Shown: positions 638-6,518 of the stretch, piece by piece
Position numbering within the stretch: position 1 is the stretch's first letter
Layout: every line of letters begins with the position of its first letter
From: Psychrobacter sp.
GTDB lineage: Bacteria > Pseudomonadota > Gammaproteobacteria > Pseudomonadales > Moraxellaceae
DNA: 12,537 nucleotides
Direction: 5' to 3'
Assembly (NCBI GenBank): GCA_012270355.1
Contig: JAAXIL010000204.1
Location: 1 to 12,537, forward strand
The notes under the pieces: model-generated
What the model was told of the DNA's origin: nothing
The model's input: only the letters and a program-made list of their open reading frames with translations
Database searches by the model: none
Made by a program: the position numbers and the translations under genes

Positions 638-2527
638 TTAAGCAACCATACTCACAGTTGATTGTATCGGTGCTATGACGCCCAATTGGGCGGTAGGGTC
701 TAGCGTAGGAAAATCGTCTCGAAAGTGACCGCCTCGACTCTCAACCCGTTCTAGAGCCGACTTTAACATCAACTCACATAAGATAAGCTGACGTTGCCAC
801 TGCCACAGGCTTAATGCCTCCTCACGGCTGAGCGTTGTTCGGCTATCTCCTTGCTGAATATGATTTTGCACCAGTTGCTCGCCCGCTGTCGCCGCTATGA
901 TATGAGTAACTTCGATGCGTGGGCATGTGTTTTGCCATTCTTTAATGCTGCTTAAAGCCTGCATCAAACCAGTTTTGGTGCGGCAGATGCCCATATACTT
1001 GGTCATCAGGTGTTTTAATTGGGGATAATCTGGGTGTATCTGTACAGAACCCTCTAAACTCACTGGCTTTGGCTGGATATGCTTGCCGATTCGGCGGCGT
1101 GCTTGAGCAGACGGTTTGACACAAATATCGGTAAGATGTTCCCGCTGGGGCATAAGGGTGTTTGGTGGCAATTCTGCTGCCAACCGCTGAGCGATTGCCT
1201 GCCCCACTACCACACATTCGAGCAAAGAGTTACTCGCCAATCGGTTTGCCCCATGCAATCCCGTATGTGCCACTTCCCCCACCGCAAATAGTCCTGAGAC
1301 ATCGGTTTGTCCTTGAGCATCTGTCATTACGCCGCCGCAGGTATAATGTGCAGTGGGGGCGACAGGTATCGGCTGACAGGTGATGTCTATGTGATGCGAC
1401 AGACAGTGAGCGTAGATGCTGGGAAAATGATGCTTAATAAAGGTCGCAGATTGATGCGAGATGTCTAAATACACATGGTTGAGGTCATGGTTTTGCATTT
1501 CTGTGGCAATCGCTCGTGCCACGATGTCTCGAGGGGCAAGTTCAGCACGGTCATCATACCGTGGCATGAATCGTTCGCCAGTTTTTGGATTAATGAGCCG
1601 CCCGCCTTCGCCACGTACGGCTTCGGAAATTAAGAAATTGCTATCGCCATGGACAAACCCTGTCGGATGAAACTGCACAAATTCTAAATTTGCCAAACGG
1701 CACCCTGCCTGCCAAGCCATAACGATACCATCGCCCACGCATACTGTCGGGGCAGTTGCACGCTTAAATAACTGCCCTAACCCACCGCTGGCTAGCACCA
1801 CACTTTTAGCCTGTATGGCAAAAACTTGTTTTGAACCACTCAACACCATCGCTCCCAGCACCCGTTTAGTAGGCTGGCGTGTGTCAAACTTAGCGACGGG
1901 GGCACATTGAGCATACGACTCATCACCTTTTTTGTCTTCCGTTATGAGCGACAATGCCATATGCTGTGACAAAACAGTAATGTGGTCACGCTTAGAAATT
2001 TGCTCATATAACGCATGCATGATGTGCTTGCCCGTCGCATCATCTGCATGTACCACTCTACGGTGACTGTGCCCGCCTTCTTGCGTGAGATGCAATTCGT
2101 GAACTTGCGTGCCATCGCTTAGGTTTGCGTCAGAATTTAGGCTAAAAGGGACCCCTTGCTGAATCAACCACGCCACTGCTGAGCGTCCTTGACTCAAGAT
2201 TTGCTCCGTCGCTTTGGCATCACACAATCCATCACCAGCAATCAAAGTATCTCGAACATGGTTTGCGGTACTGTCGCTGGGACTGAGACTGGCAGCAATA
2301 CCGCCTTGAGCGTAGTAGCTAGAGCAAGCAGATAACTCATCTTTTGCCAAAACTATGATATTAAGATGCGATGGCAAGCACAGGGCGGTTGTTAATCCTG
2401 CCAAACCCGCCCCAATCACTAATACGTCACACTGCTGGGTTAACACGTTTTTGCTGTCAGAAGGCGATGTTTGCATGGGCATTTTTGGATTTATGGACAT
2501 GGGATTGCCAATATGGTCTGATGCCAT
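638..2527 (-). CDS. nadB: L-aspartate oxidase (quinolinate synthetase B)
   Basis: This FAD enzyme oxidises L-aspartate to iminoaspartate, the first step of de novo NAD synthesis. The 629 residues contain the dinucleotide motif GAGLAG at 39-44, SYYAQGGIAAS at 70-80, EGGHSHRRVVHADDATG at 150-166, QFHPTG at 285-290, LAPRDIVARAI at 330-340, and HGANRLASNSLLE at 425-437. Active-site positions remembered from the E. coli enzyme (Glu121, His244, Arg290, His351, Arg386) correspond to Glu150, His287, Arg333, His394 and Arg429. The offset is 29 at the first and a constant 43 afterwards, so the fold is intact, with an N-terminal extension of about 29 residues and an insert of about 14 residues between 150 and 287. 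The start ATG overlaps the nadA stop (TAATG), with GGAG seven bases upstream, so translation is probably coupled. It is the second gene of the nadA-nadB operon, presumably controlled through the operator upstream of nadA. Confidence 0.97.
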   Translation of the reverse strand: MASDHIGNPMSINPKMPMQTSPSDSKNVLTQQCDVLVIGAGLAGLTTALCLPSHLNIIVLAKDELSACSSYYAQGGIAASLSPSDSTANHVRDTLIAGDGLCDAKATEQILSQGRSAVAWLIQQGVPFSLNSDANLSDGTQVHELHLTQEGGHSHRRVVHADDATGKHIMHALYEQISKRDHITVLSQHMALSLITEDKKGDESYAQCAPVAKFDTRQPTKRVLGAMVLSGSKQVFAIQAKSVVLASGGLGQLFKRATAPTVCVGDGIVMAWQAGCRLANLEFVQFHPTGFVHGDSNFLISEAVRGEGGRLINPKTGERFMPRYDDRAELAPRDIVARAIATEMQNHDLNHVYLDISHQSATFIKHHFPSIYAHCLSHHIDITCQPIPVAPTAHYTCGGVMTDAQGQTDVSGLFAVGEVAHTGLHGANRLASNSLLECVVVGQAIAQRLAAELPPNTLMPQREHLTDICVKPSAQARRRIGKHIQPKPVSLEGSVQIHPDYPQLKHLMTKYMGICRTKTGLMQALSSIKEWQNTCPRIEVTHIIAATAGEQLVQNHIQQGDSRTTLSREEALSLWQWQRQLILCELMLKSALERVESRGGHFRDDFPTLDPTAQLGVIAPIQSTVSMVA

Positions 2528-3789
2528 TAAGCAGCTCCGACGTTTTGAAATAACGGGCGGTCTTTAACAATATCACCACTGGCTTGCACCCGTTTTTTGT
2601 GTTCAGCTGCAAAATCAAGCATGCGTTGTAAAGGCAATAATGCTCGTGTTGCTAGCTTTTTGTCCAGTATGATTTCGCCCGAGTTGGTATTAAGGGCGTG
2701 TTCAATACCTTCAAGTCCATTCATCGCCATCCATGGACAAAAGGCACAGCTTTTGCATGTTGCACTCTCACCCGCCGTAGGAGCTGCCAAAAATCGTTTG
2801 TTTGGTGACTGCTTTTGCATTTCGTGCAAAATGCCGAGGTCGGTTGCCACAATGAAGGTGCTGGCGTCCATGTCTTTAGTGGCACTCAAGAGCTTGCTGG
2901 TTGAGCCCACCACATCTGCCAGTTCCACGACGCTATCAGGCGATTCAGGATGAACCAACACAACCGCATCTGGATGCTCATTTTTAAGCTGCACAAGCTC
3001 TGTGGCTTTAAACTCGTTGTGCACGATGCATGAGCCTTGCCAAAGCAGCATATCCGCTCCCGTCTTTTTTTGAATAAAATTACCTAAATGACGATCTGGT
3101 CCCCAGATTAGTTTTTCGCCCCGGTTATGCAAATGTGTCACTATCTCCAAACCAATGGATGAGGTCACCACCCAGTCGGCACGAGCTTTAACCTCAGCAC
3201 TGGTGTTGGCATATACCACCACCGTGCGGTCGGGATGAGCATCACAAAATGCACTAAACTCTTCGATTGGGCAACCCAAGTCTAGCGAGCACTCCGCCTC
3301 TAAATCTGCCATCAAGACGGTTTTTTCCATACTAAGAATTTTTGCAGACTCCCCCATAAACCTGACGCCTGCCACCACTAAAGTATCGGCAGAATGAGCT
3401 TGACCAAAGCGAGCCATCTCAAGTGAATCCCCAACACAGCCGCCAGTTGCCAATGCCAAATCCTGAATATAAGGATCAACATAATAATGAGCGACTAACA
3501 CGGCATTTTTTTCAATCAGCAATTTTTTGATACGTTCCTCAACCTGCAACCGCTTTGAGCGAGGTAGCTCAGCTGGTATGCGTGCTCGGGCATATTCAAT
3601 ATCAATTTTGCCGTCTACGTTTGTCGTTGTGGTTTGATTCATGAGGGCATTGGTCTGCTTTAACGGTGGGGCGTCATAAGCAAAAGTTTCTACAAACTCT
3701 GGCTGTGACTGTGTTGCGGCATGCATTTTGGTTCTGTGCGGATGACTCATTTTCATTGCTGAACTTTTAATCGCTGAACGTGTGGTCAT
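2527..3789 (-). CDS. nadA: quinolinate synthase (4Fe-4S enzyme)
   Basis: NadA condenses iminoaspartate with dihydroxyacetone phosphate to give quinolinate, using an oxygen-sensitive 4Fe-4S cluster. The 420 residues include [13 protein letters not shown] at 100-112, [15 protein letters not shown] at 115-129, [13 protein letters not shown] at 141-153 and the C-terminal [10 protein letters not shown] at 345-354. Cys167, Cys254 and Cys351 have exactly the spacing (87 and 97) of the three cluster ligands I recall for E. coli NadA (113, 200, 297). This places the protein in the longer E. coli-like subclass with an N-terminal extension of about 54 residues. The start at 3789 is supported by AGGAG six bases upstream; the later in-frame Met50 has no ribosome binding site. 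The gene heads the nadA-nadB operon, diverges from nrtR and has a leader of roughly 215 bases containing a perfect palindrome. NrtR repression is inferred from the operator at 4014-4034. Confidence 0.97.
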
Positions 3790-3931: not shown

Positions 3932-4012
3932 GGTATCATTTCAGCACGTTCTAAATCGGCAAGCAGAACCCTTTAGCATGATTTATTTGACATTAGATAA
4001 GATTTATATACA

Positions 4013-4040
4013 ATTATGCTCATTTTGAGTATAAATACAA
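4013..4040 (-). promoter_or_regulatory. candidate nadA-nadB promoter
   Basis: On the minus strand TTGTAT (4040-4035) is followed after 16 bases by CATAAT (4018-4013). The spacer is largely occupied by the palindromic operator, an arrangement expected for a repressor that blocks RNA polymerase. A further AT-rich TATATAAA lies about 10 bases downstream and could supply an alternative -10. If correct, transcription starts near 4005 and leaves a long nadA leader. Confidence 0.45.
4014..4034 (-). promoter_or_regulatory. candidate NrtR operator upstream of nadA
   Basis: A 21-bp imperfect palindrome whose minus-strand core is ATACTCAAAATGAGCAT, with mirrored TTAT/ATAA flanks. Only the central pair and one pair per arm break the symmetry. 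The core matches 15 of 17 bases of the site before nadC, the other gene expected to be under the same control. The regulator gene nrtR lies between the two sites. Binding by NrtR is inferred from this arrangement and not shown directly. Confidence 0.75.
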
Positions 4041-4260
4041 GTGATTTATTCATATTCTCTATCTTTGAATAATAGATATCTATACTATTAAAGTCGATTT
4101 GTGGTTTTATCTGACCTGAATTTCGCTCTGCTACCATGCCATTTACTGGCTTAAGATTGATGTTTAACAAATAAATCATTTTGCATACTTGCTCGACTCT
4201 ACTTAACTCTTTTTTCAATTAACTCTTTATAAGCTATCAACCGCAATCACACGGCATACC

Positions 4261-5382
4261 ATGAGTCTCACATTTTCCCACACACATCAGCAAGGTAATG
4301 GCACAACAGAAGTGGTTGCCGTGTTGTTCGCCATCATAGATGAGAGACCTGCCGTATTAACCGTGGATGCTGGCAAACTATTGCCCAACGGTCCATTGAT
4401 GCCGCTACATCGCTCGTTGCAAGCTGGGGTACGGCAGTGGGTTGAAGAACAAACGGGTCAGATGCTGGGATATATAGAGCAGCTATACACTTTTGTCGAT
4501 ACCAATCGCAGAGGAGCGGATGGTCATGCCACCATTTATGTCAGCTATTTAGGATTATTGCAAGAAGCGGCGATTGCCCAGCCTGTGACGGCAACTTCTG
4601 ATGGCTCATCATCAACTGCAAATCGTGACAAGGGGGCTGCTTTGCCTGAGCATTTACCCACTACAGAGCAACTGACCGAAGATAATAGAGTGCAATGGCG
4701 ATGCTGGTATGATTTTTTCCCTTGGGAAGATCAACTGAATCCTAAGTCTGACACCATCATACAAGTCATTATCCAGCAACTACAAAACTGGGCGAACCGA
4801 GCAAACTCGGTAGAAGAAACCACGACCAGAGAGCGTCGTATACAATTGTGTTGGGGGCAGCATCATGAGGCAGAGCATACGGCTCAACGTGATGAACAGG
4901 CTGCCCAACAACCGCAAAAAACACCCACCAACTGGGTGGCGGAGCACGCTTTGTTACGCTATGAAATGCTTTATGAAGCTGGTCTAATTCCAGAATCGCC
5001 TGATTTTTTGCCCAGCACCTTGCCTGCTGAATTGCAACCAGACTGGCAAAACATCACAGGTATACCCATGTACTATGATCATCGACGGGTTATTGTGACC
5101 GCCATCGCTCGACTGAGAGCAAAAATTGAATATCGCCCTCTGATTTTTGGCTTAATGCCCGAAGAATTTACTTTGTCACAATTGCAACATAGCGTAGAAG
5201 CATTGACGGGCGAAGCCTTGCATAAACAAAACTTTAGACGGCTACTCATTCACCAAGACCTTTTAGAGCCCACAGGCAGACTGTATTCACCAAAGCGAGG
5301 AAGACCCGCAAAACTGTATCGATACAAATTTGATGTCGGCATGCATAGCATCTTGATGGCGAGCAAATTACCAAAAAAGTGA
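4261..5382 (+). CDS. nrtR: NrtR-type Nudix-related transcriptional regulator of NAD biosynthesis
   Basis: NrtR proteins are repressors of NAD genes with a non-hydrolytic Nudix domain that senses ADP-ribose or related metabolites and a C-terminal winged helix. Residues 17-100 read as the Nudix fold (EVVAVLFAIIDERPAVLTV). The Nudix box region GPLMPLHRSLQAGVRQWVEE at 44-63 keeps Arg and the EE pair but has His and Gln where catalytic glutamates are expected, so hydrolysis is unlikely. Residues about 105-140 are a low-complexity S/T/Q/E-rich insert. RCWYDFFPWED at 147-157 and LRYEMLYEAGL at 232-242 recall the long COG4111-like form that I remember from alphaproteobacteria. YDHRRVIVTAIARLRAKIEY, LHKQNFRRLL (320-329) and KRGRPAKLYRY (345-355) form the winged helix. 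At 373 residues it exceeds the roughly 220-240 usual for NrtR. The gene sits between nadA and nadC and is flanked by paired palindromes. No strong ribosome binding site precedes the ATG. Confidence 0.9.
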   Translation: MSLTFSHTHQQGNGTTEVVAVLFAIIDERPAVLTVDAGKLLPNGPLMPLHRSLQAGVRQWVEEQTGQMLGYIEQLYTFVDTNRRGADGHATIYVSYLGLLQEAAIAQPVTATSDGSSSTANRDKGAALPEHLPTTEQLTEDNRVQWRCWYDFFPWEDQLNPKSDTIIQVIIQQLQNWANRANSVEETTTRERRIQLCWGQHHEAEHTAQRDEQAAQQPQKTPTNWVAEHALLRYEMLYEAGLIPESPDFLPSTLPAELQPDWQNITGIPMYYDHRRVIVTAIARLRAKIEYRPLIFGLMPEEFTLSQLQHSVEALTGEALHKQNFRRLLIHQDLLEPTGRLYSPKRGRPAKLYRYKFDVGMHSILMASKLPKK

Positions 5383-5404
5383 TGCAAAATTCTTAACCCT
5401 AACA

Positions 5405-5433
5405 TTTATTTAATACTCAATTTGAGCATTAAT
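5405..5433 (+). promoter_or_regulatory. candidate nadC promoter
   Basis: TTTATT (5405-5410) and ATTAAT (5428-5433) are separated by 17 bases, with the palindromic operator covering the spacer and touching the -10. The hexamers are weak, but the layout copies that of the nadA promoter. Transcription would start near 5440, about 50 bases before the preferred nadC start. Confidence 0.35.
5410..5432 (+). promoter_or_regulatory. candidate NrtR operator upstream of nadC
   Basis: A 23-bp palindrome with one mismatched pair. The plus-strand core ATACTCAATTTGAGCAT sits between TTA and TAA flanks, and the centre is base 5421. It matches the nadA site at 15 of 17 core bases and is oriented the same way relative to its gene, with the GAGCAT half toward the -10. 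It begins 28 bases after the nrtR stop, so nadC probably has its own regulated promoter and does not depend only on read-through from nrtR. Confidence 0.75.
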
Positions 5434-5489
5434 CCCAGTTACATTTTACATTGAGTCAGAAACATATCGTGCACACACAAGGAATGATG

Positions 5490-6518
5490 ATGGCAATACT
5501 TCCCAAATCAAACATTGTTAAATCGGCTGCCAAGTTAAGGCTTTTTTGCAAAAAACCAGCACAACATCAATCCGTTGTCGCTGCCAGTCCAGCTTCATCC
5601 CATGCACTGGCTAACCAAAGCGACGAAGTTACAACATCTAGTCTGTATCCGCCTGCGGCATTAGATGATGTGCTGATTAAGCCCATGGTAGAGGCAGCTT
5701 TGATAGAAGATTTGGGCAGACGTGGTGACATCACCTCACAAGCCACCATTCCCGCACAGCAGCAAGCCAAACTGATTTTAAATGTACGCCAAACTGGTGT
5801 TGTTTGTGGCATGGACTTGGCGATATTGGCATTCAAGCTCATAAACCCAGACATCGTATTTTCTGCCCAAGCCCACGATGGGCAACTTGTCCAAGCTGGC
5901 ACTACGCTTGCGACGATTGAAGGCAATGCCAGAGATTTGTTGGCAGCCGAACGCACCGCTTTAAACTATTTAACTCATCTGAGTGGCATCGCAACTGCAA
6001 CGTATGAAGTGACAAAGCAGATTCACGCTTTACCCACCCAAATCACCTGCTCTCGCAAAACCATTCCAGGGCTTCGAATTTTACAAAAATATGCGGTTCG
6101 TTGTGGCGGCGGCACCAATCATCGCATGGGGCTGGATGATGCAATTCTGATTAAAGACAATCATATTGCCATTGCTGGCAACATTTCTAAAGCCATCTCT
6201 CAAGCTAAGGCGATGGCGGGGCACTTGATACCTATTGAGATTGAAGTGGATACGTTGACTCAACTTGAAGAGGCATTATCTGCCGGAGCAACCTTTGTGC
6301 TGCTAGATAATATGGACAACTCGACCCTCACTAAAGCGGTGAAGATGTGTCAAGATTACGCCGACAAACACGGTGTGCTCATTCGAACTGAAGCCTCAGG
6401 GGGCGTCACTCCAGAAAAGGTCACAGACATTGCAAACACTGGGGTAGATTTTATCGCCATGGGTTATCTGACCCATAGCACCGCCGCATTAGACATTGGC
6501 ATGGACTTCGTGGCATAA
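5490..6518 (+). CDS. nadC: nicotinate-nucleotide diphosphorylase, carboxylating (quinolinate phosphoribosyltransferase)
   Basis: NadC turns quinolinate and phosphoribosyl pyrophosphate into nicotinate mononucleotide, CO2 and pyrophosphate, the third step of the pathway. From the start used here the protein has 342 residues. The family core begins near residue 63 (IKPMVEAALIEDLGRRGDIT). Further matches are ERTALNYLTHLSG at 154-166, SRKTIPGLRILQKYAVRCGGG at 188-208, NHRMGLDDAILIKDNH at 210-225, EVDTLTQLEEAL at 252-263 and the C-terminal FIAMGYLTHS. In the phosphate-binding segment the usual DTRKT reads CSRKT, while Arg189 and Lys190 are kept. Three ATGs stand in a row at 5484, 5487 and 5490. 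AAGGA at 5479-5483 is best spaced for 5490, whereas a TTG at 5451 has no ribosome binding site. Even so, some 60 residues precede the conserved core. The candidate operator lies 58 bases upstream of this start. Confidence 0.95.
   Translation: MAILPKSNIVKSAAKLRLFCKKPAQHQSVVAASPASSHALANQSDEVTTSSLYPPAALDDVLIKPMVEAALIEDLGRRGDITSQATIPAQQQAKLILNVRQTGVVCGMDLAILAFKLINPDIVFSAQAHDGQLVQAGTTLATIEGNARDLLAAERTALNYLTHLSGIATATYEVTKQIHALPTQITCSRKTIPGLRILQKYAVRCGGGTNHRMGLDDAILIKDNHIAIAGNISKAISQAKAMAGHLIPIEIEVDTLTQLEEALSAGATFVLLDNMDNSTLTKAVKMCQDYADKHGVLIRTEASGGVTPEKVTDIANTGVDFIAMGYLTHSTAALDIGMDFVA

Follow-up and report, generated by a model that had tools for sequence, protein, structure and literature searches.

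A 12,537-nucleotide stretch of Psychrobacter sp. DNA (contig JAAXIL010000204.1; hereafter the window) carries genes of the de novo pathway to nicotinamide adenine dinucleotide (NAD) around a regulator gene, in the order nadBA <- O1 -> nadQ -> O2 -> nadC, where O1 and O2 are two copies of one palindrome. We conclude that the window very probably holds a NadQ regulon, in which the locally encoded NadQ binds O1 and O2 and switches nadA-nadB and nadC together, with adenosine triphosphate (ATP) and NAD as the likely effectors. The original prediction from this DNA had proposed a closed circuit run by an NrtR-type regulator. Its gene assignments were correct: Pfam matches place nadA-nadB on the minus strand and nadC on the plus strand, with the regulator gene between them. 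The closed circuit itself, meaning a shared palindrome served by a local regulator, is well supported because the motif is conserved, co-occurs with the regulator and agrees with published work on the NadQ family, but the name NrtR did not hold.

Judged from its sequence and its structural model, the regulator is NadQ (COG4111), a regulator of NAD biosynthesis that had been misnamed NrtR. The protein matches NadQ of Agrobacterium tumefaciens with E=6.1e-61 in two stretches, and a profile search gave E=3.8e-103 over one stretch. The match to the A. tumefaciens NadQ structures spans both domains, and a Nudix-like N-terminal domain and a winged helix are both present; in the model, the loops at residues 105-142 and 202-222 are of low confidence. 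Two further NadQ traits were found, namely clustering of the regulator gene with nadA, nadB and nadC, which is seen in the window and in relatives, and the operator core ATRCTCannntGAGYAT, which has no mismatch at O1 or O2. Because the regulator is NadQ and not NrtR, its effector is likely, by analogy, to be ATP or NAD rather than adenosine diphosphate (ADP)-ribose.

The O1 and O2 palindromes are real and above chance. O1 reads ATACTCAAAATGAGCAT on the minus strand and O2 reads ATACTCAATTTGAGCAT on the plus strand (Table 1), and the two cores are identical at 15 of 17 bases, as had been claimed. Searching the window with ATACTCAWWWTGAGCAT at up to three mismatches yielded four strand matches, all at O1 and O2, while the same search on 200 dinucleotide-preserving shuffles gave a mean of 0.31 matches, and 0/200 shuffles reached four. 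Across the draft genome from which the window comes, zero-mismatch matches occur at O1 and O2 only. Five further places match at two mismatches, and the three that were examined (C176:40250 and C240:2983 were left out) all lie inside open reading frames (ORFs), which we read by name as rimM, an RNase T-like exonuclease and anmK.

The motif is also conserved within the genus. We compared 30 genus loci, including the window, drawn from 36 genomes with a match; nadA falls outside the stretch in one locus (L012). Although gene lengths and distances vary among these loci, the sites are constant, with the best site in the nadA-nadQ gap showing 0-1 mismatch in 30/30 loci and the best site in the nadQ-nadC gap showing 0-2 mismatches in 30/30. 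The nadA-side site holds 1.92 bits per column against 0.83 and 0.61 in its flanks (27 non-redundant loci), and the nadC-side site 1.83 bits against 0.93 and 0.40 (24 non-redundant loci), values that are raised by taking the best match per gap and centring the alignments there. With one base of the core relaxed, the motif occurs in 60/60 genus genomes sampled, compared with 8/60 for the reversed pattern. Among named Psychrobacter loci, the nadC-side site is present at up to one mismatch in 14 of 15. Two checks suggested with the original prediction, on conservation and on occurrence at unrelated genes, thus went its way: relatives that keep the nad cluster keep the motif, and the sites examined outside the cluster are mostly inside genes.

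In the genus, at least 31 places outside the nad cluster match, and of the 13 that we examined 11 fall inside ORFs of at least 100 amino acids and two between convergent ORFs. One genome (G163) carries two further exact sites, of which L107 is inside an ORF and L121 was left out. Further regulon members were sought at the three places examined in the genome of the window and at the genus places examined, and no new target emerged. In three genus genomes the exact palindrome lies inside similar ORFs of 321-334 amino acids (L066:1892-1908, L074:1660-1676 and L119:1501-1517) that look, by reading, like plasmid replication proteins, which is probably a coincidence of coding sequence. The genome with the last of these (G240; L119, L125) is the sole genus member of 66 with no NadQ match, and its only exact motif is the one inside the replication-protein-like ORF.

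Co-occurrence of regulator and motif extends to the family. In a sample of 199 genomes, with NadQ called at E below 1e-30, NadQ is present in 74, comprising 65/66 of the genus, 7/65 of group g36 (Acinetobacter) and 2/22 of group g31. The exact core was found in 71/74 genomes with NadQ versus 18/125 without, and the reversed pattern in 2/199; the three NadQ genomes that miss the exact core carry one-mismatch sites (G032, L011; G161, L084; G202, L132). Matches to nadA, nadB, nadC or nadQ were found near the exact core in 0/18 of the stretches from genomes lacking NadQ (up to 1.5 kilobases (kb) on each side), and 15 of these 18 cores fall within ORFs of 100 amino acids or more, the ORFs used to place off-cluster sites being mechanical. 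In the nine NadQ genomes outside the genus, nadA, nadQ and nadC remain neighbours; a site precedes nadA in 9/9 (0-1 mismatch), and in the seven g36 genomes with NadQ another stands before nadC (likewise 0-1 mismatch). The window's arrangement, nadBA <- site -> nadQ -> site -> nadC, is found again elsewhere in the genus and in part of Acinetobacter. The two g31 genomes have tandem sites 31-32 base pairs (bp) apart before nadA/nadQ (L088:822-870 and L089:838-885) and none before nadC. In Acinetobacter rathckeae (NZ_VTDO01000003.1; L144, L145), nadB-nadA-nadQ-nadC occurs twice on one contig, as copies that lie about 28 kb from each other, point in opposite directions and have identical match and site coordinates.

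The association also holds in named records. An alignment-based search gave 587 named NadQ loci, whereas a contig search with the single regulator protein as query found no relative. The best 80 of the 587 include 15 from Psychrobacter and so are not independent of one another; in 68 of them a site with no more than one mismatch lies outside the matched nad segments, and in 52 it is exact. Here, as for the stretches around sites in the family sample, "outside" and "no match" are defined by tblastn segments of the window proteins rather than by annotated genes. When these loci were shuffled by moving non-overlapping dinucleotides, the averages were 0.15/80 at up to one mismatch and 0/80 exact. 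The loci with the motif come from several proteobacterial classes.

The placement of the sites relative to promoters was compared in 27 non-redundant genus loci, with plain base shuffles as control. At nadA, the -10 element CATAAT, which includes the final three palindrome bases, is present in 27/27 loci, and a -35 element TTGTAT, TTGTAA or TTGTTT stands at 16 nucleotides in 26/27. A nadA -35 with at least four of the six textbook hexamer bases occurs in 7/27 loci versus 7.3 in shuffles, which indicates that its support comes from conservation and not from consensus. At nadC, TATATT ends one base before the operator in 26/27 loci, which suggests that the operator covers the likely nadC start site in relatives; a -35 with at least four matches was found there in 14/27 loci versus 7.2 in shuffles. 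Toward nadQ, a -10-like hexamer precedes O1 in 26/27 loci and is partly the nadA -10 read on the opposite strand, and the nadQ -35 is not conserved (6/27 versus 6.8). The earlier claim that both sites sit between -35 and -10 hexamers thus stands at nadA (TTGTAT-N16-CATAAT) and is weak at nadC, where the site of relatives lies downstream of the -10.

We propose that the NadQ encoded between the two operators would bind the palindrome of 17-21 bp, probably in dimeric form. When bound at O1, it would fill the spacer of the nadA-nadB promoter, from -35 to -10, and could thereby block RNA polymerase sterically. A possible nadQ promoter ends just upstream of O1, an arrangement through which NadQ may limit its own expression; this self-repression is plausible, a reasonable guess. 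At O2, NadQ would block transcription into nadC. Through ATP and NAD, NadQ would sense the cell's energy and cofactor status and change its hold on DNA, and the predicted outcome is that all steps of de novo synthesis between aspartate and nicotinate mononucleotide are turned on or off together.

Several observations weigh against this conclusion. At up to three mismatches, the genome of the window gave 41 forward and 34 reverse matches versus 8 and 8 for the reversed pattern, which shows that weak look-alike sites are common. That draft genome is 83% complete, so further NadQ targets could be missing from it and have gone unseen. The exact core in 18/125 genomes without NadQ exceeds the reversed control, and two of the 18 cores lie between divergent ORFs; since these cores are away from nad matches, chance or unrelated sites do exist. 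In twelve of the best 80 named loci, the stretch shows no site at up to one mismatch outside the matched nad segments. Nine of the twelve also have no nadA, nadB or nadC match there and one (L164) has a site under the nadC match, while L171 and L205 have a nadA match yet no site. One named Psychrobacter locus (L133) has no nadC-side site at one mismatch. Finally, the window is the one locus of 27 without the TATATT -10 before the nadC site, which makes the action of O2 in the window uncertain. As to L205, it is an actinobacterial record (Intrasporangium chromatireducens) whose NadQ is 41% identical to the query, which reflects either gene transfer or contamination.

The uncertainty at O2 bears on an unlikely, though not negligible, alternative, namely that O1 serves nadA-nadB and nadQ, that O2 is a secondary site or roadblock in a nadQ-nadC transcript and that the nadQ promoter is the main point of control for nadC. 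Such an arrangement would fit the missing -10 at the nadC site of the window and the good promoter-like element that faces nadQ, as well as the two g31 genomes, where nadC has no site of its own and its match starts 37-45 bases past the nadQ stop. It is harder to reconcile with a nadC-side site that is kept at all 30 genus loci and stands beside the conserved TATATT in 26/27.

Far less probable is that the regulator is an NrtR sensing ADP-ribose and that the palindromes are NrtR operators. The NCBIfam NrtR model does match the regulator, at 57.4 bits, but only over residues 268-358, the C-terminal winged helix, whereas the true NrtR of a relative, used as control, scored 257 bits over its whole length (residues 24-259). 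The model's cut-off is 400 bits, which the control also misses, so the cut-off is too strict to be used alone. At E 0.01 a Pfam Nudix domain was detected in 0/22 NadQ members and in the control NrtR with E=1.9e-12; a literal Nudix-box scan, in which the true NrtR scored no better than NadQ, was not used. The sequence of the palindrome is that of the NadQ consensus and differs from the NrtR motifs quoted for Mycobacterium and Streptococcus. NrtR identity was rejected on the C-terminal-only match, the lack of a Pfam Nudix match and the far better NadQ match over both domains. Least credible of all is that the palindromes are a hairpin or chance AT-rich repeats not bound by the neighbouring regulator, since, although they are AT-rich and could on inspection form a short hairpin, they exceed shuffles, no terminator-like call was found at O1 or O2, and the motif co-occurs with NadQ both within the family and among named records from several proteobacterial classes.

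Within our preferred reading of a NadQ regulon, we tentatively suggest that one operator sequence serves three promoters in two geometries, in the spacer at nadA and at the start site at nadC and perhaps nadQ, combined with an interchange of NadQ and NrtR in the family; we consider this possible but doubtful. If the two geometries are real, nadAB and nadC could differ in sensitivity to ATP and NAD, and quinolinate making would stop before its use.

We also recorded the distribution of the two regulators. In g36, NadQ is present in 7/65 genomes and a strong NrtR match (E below 1e-40) in 26/65, with both in 0. Over the whole sample, a strong NrtR match occurs in 1/74 NadQ genomes versus 30/125 others, counts that are not corrected for relatedness, and NadQ and NrtR may replace each other as the NAD regulator in the family. 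In two genus members, a true NrtR-like protein of 260 amino acids is encoded besides NadQ, at L079:2907-3689 (G027, 49-kb contig) and L080:2552-3334 (G021, 57 kb). The L079 copy has Nudix and NrtR_WHD matches, both genes adjoin an SPFH-like ORF and an ORF resembling NAD kinase (names by reading), and the contigs may be plasmids.

The features of the window are collected in Table 1. On the minus strand, nadA and nadB overlap by one base and probably form one transcript. Most relatives lack a counterpart of the initial 60-70 residues of the nadC ORF (window 5451-5657), their similarity starting only at residues 57-71, and the nadC start codon is uncertain. An Rfam search of the window gave no match.

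Table 1. Genes, putative operators and candidate promoters of the nad locus (window coordinates).
Feature	Position	Strand or placement	Description
nadB	638..2527	-	L-aspartate oxidase; Pfam PF00890 and PF02910; named from reading of both and context
nadA	2527..3789	-	quinolinate synthase; Pfam PF02445, E=1.5e-103
nadQ	4261..5382	+	373-amino-acid NadQ-family regulator; Nudix-like N-terminal domain plus winged helix
nadC	5451..6518	+	quinolinate phosphoribosyltransferase; Pfam PF01729 and PF02749; true start codon uncertain
Putative NadQ operator O1 (17-bp palindrome)	4016..4032	between divergent nadA (-) and nadQ (+)	0 mismatch to published NadQ core
Putative NadQ operator O2 (17-bp palindrome)	5413..5429	between nadQ and nadC	0 mismatch to published NadQ core
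Probable nadA promoter, TTGTAT-N16-CATAAT	4013..4040	-	O1 in spacer; last three O1 bases are part of the -10
Possible nadQ promoter, TTGACA-N16-TACAAT	3987..4014	+	11/12 consensus bases; ends one base before O1

This kind of system has already been described in other bacteria, and the window is an ordinary, well-conserved member of it. This analysis adds a corrected name for the regulator, a test of co-occurrence across the family and the description of two operator geometries. The likely misnaming of NadQ as NrtR would point experimenters to the wrong ligand. NadR and NiaR belong to protein families other than NadQ. PMC12421817 lists NadR, NiaR, NrtR and NadQ together among the repressors that act on genes for NAD synthesis or salvage. 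In the set of papers searched, we found none joining NrtR, nadA and Psychrobacter and, among the matches listed, none joining nadQ and Psychrobacter, RegPrecise lying outside the coverage; NrtR and Psychrobacter are mentioned together in one paper, on ArsA ATPases by its title. The Moraxellaceae instance is perhaps already in RegPrecise.

Among known systems, AraR of Bacteroides thetaiotaomicron (5bs6; solved with arabinose in 5deq) is a relative at the level of the fold only. NrtR (e.g., of Shewanella oneidensis; 3gz5, 3gz6, 3gz8) shares a homologous winged helix and a related fold and regulates NAD genes in other bacteria, but it has a recognisable Nudix domain, was solved with ADP-ribose and has other quoted operators, and its models match our regulator at the C-terminus only. 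The proteobacterial NadQ regulon (COG4111) is the closest counterpart. Its operator is given as ttATRCTCannntGAGYATaa in PMC5343134, the A. tumefaciens structures are titled as native, ATP, NAD and DNA complexes (PDB 7q91-7q94), and the title of the structure paper calls NadQ ATP-responsive. The window shares with it the protein family over both domains, the operator core, the targets nadA, nadB and nadC and the clustering of the regulator gene with them, and we infer that the regulation is shared as well. In contrast, the protein described here is longer than A. tumefaciens NadQ (373 versus 336 amino acids in the PDB chain), and the locus has a divergent nadBA / nadQ-nadC layout with two operators. 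Taken together, these comparisons indicate no new kind of system and instead a clean, testable predicted NadQ regulon in Psychrobacter.
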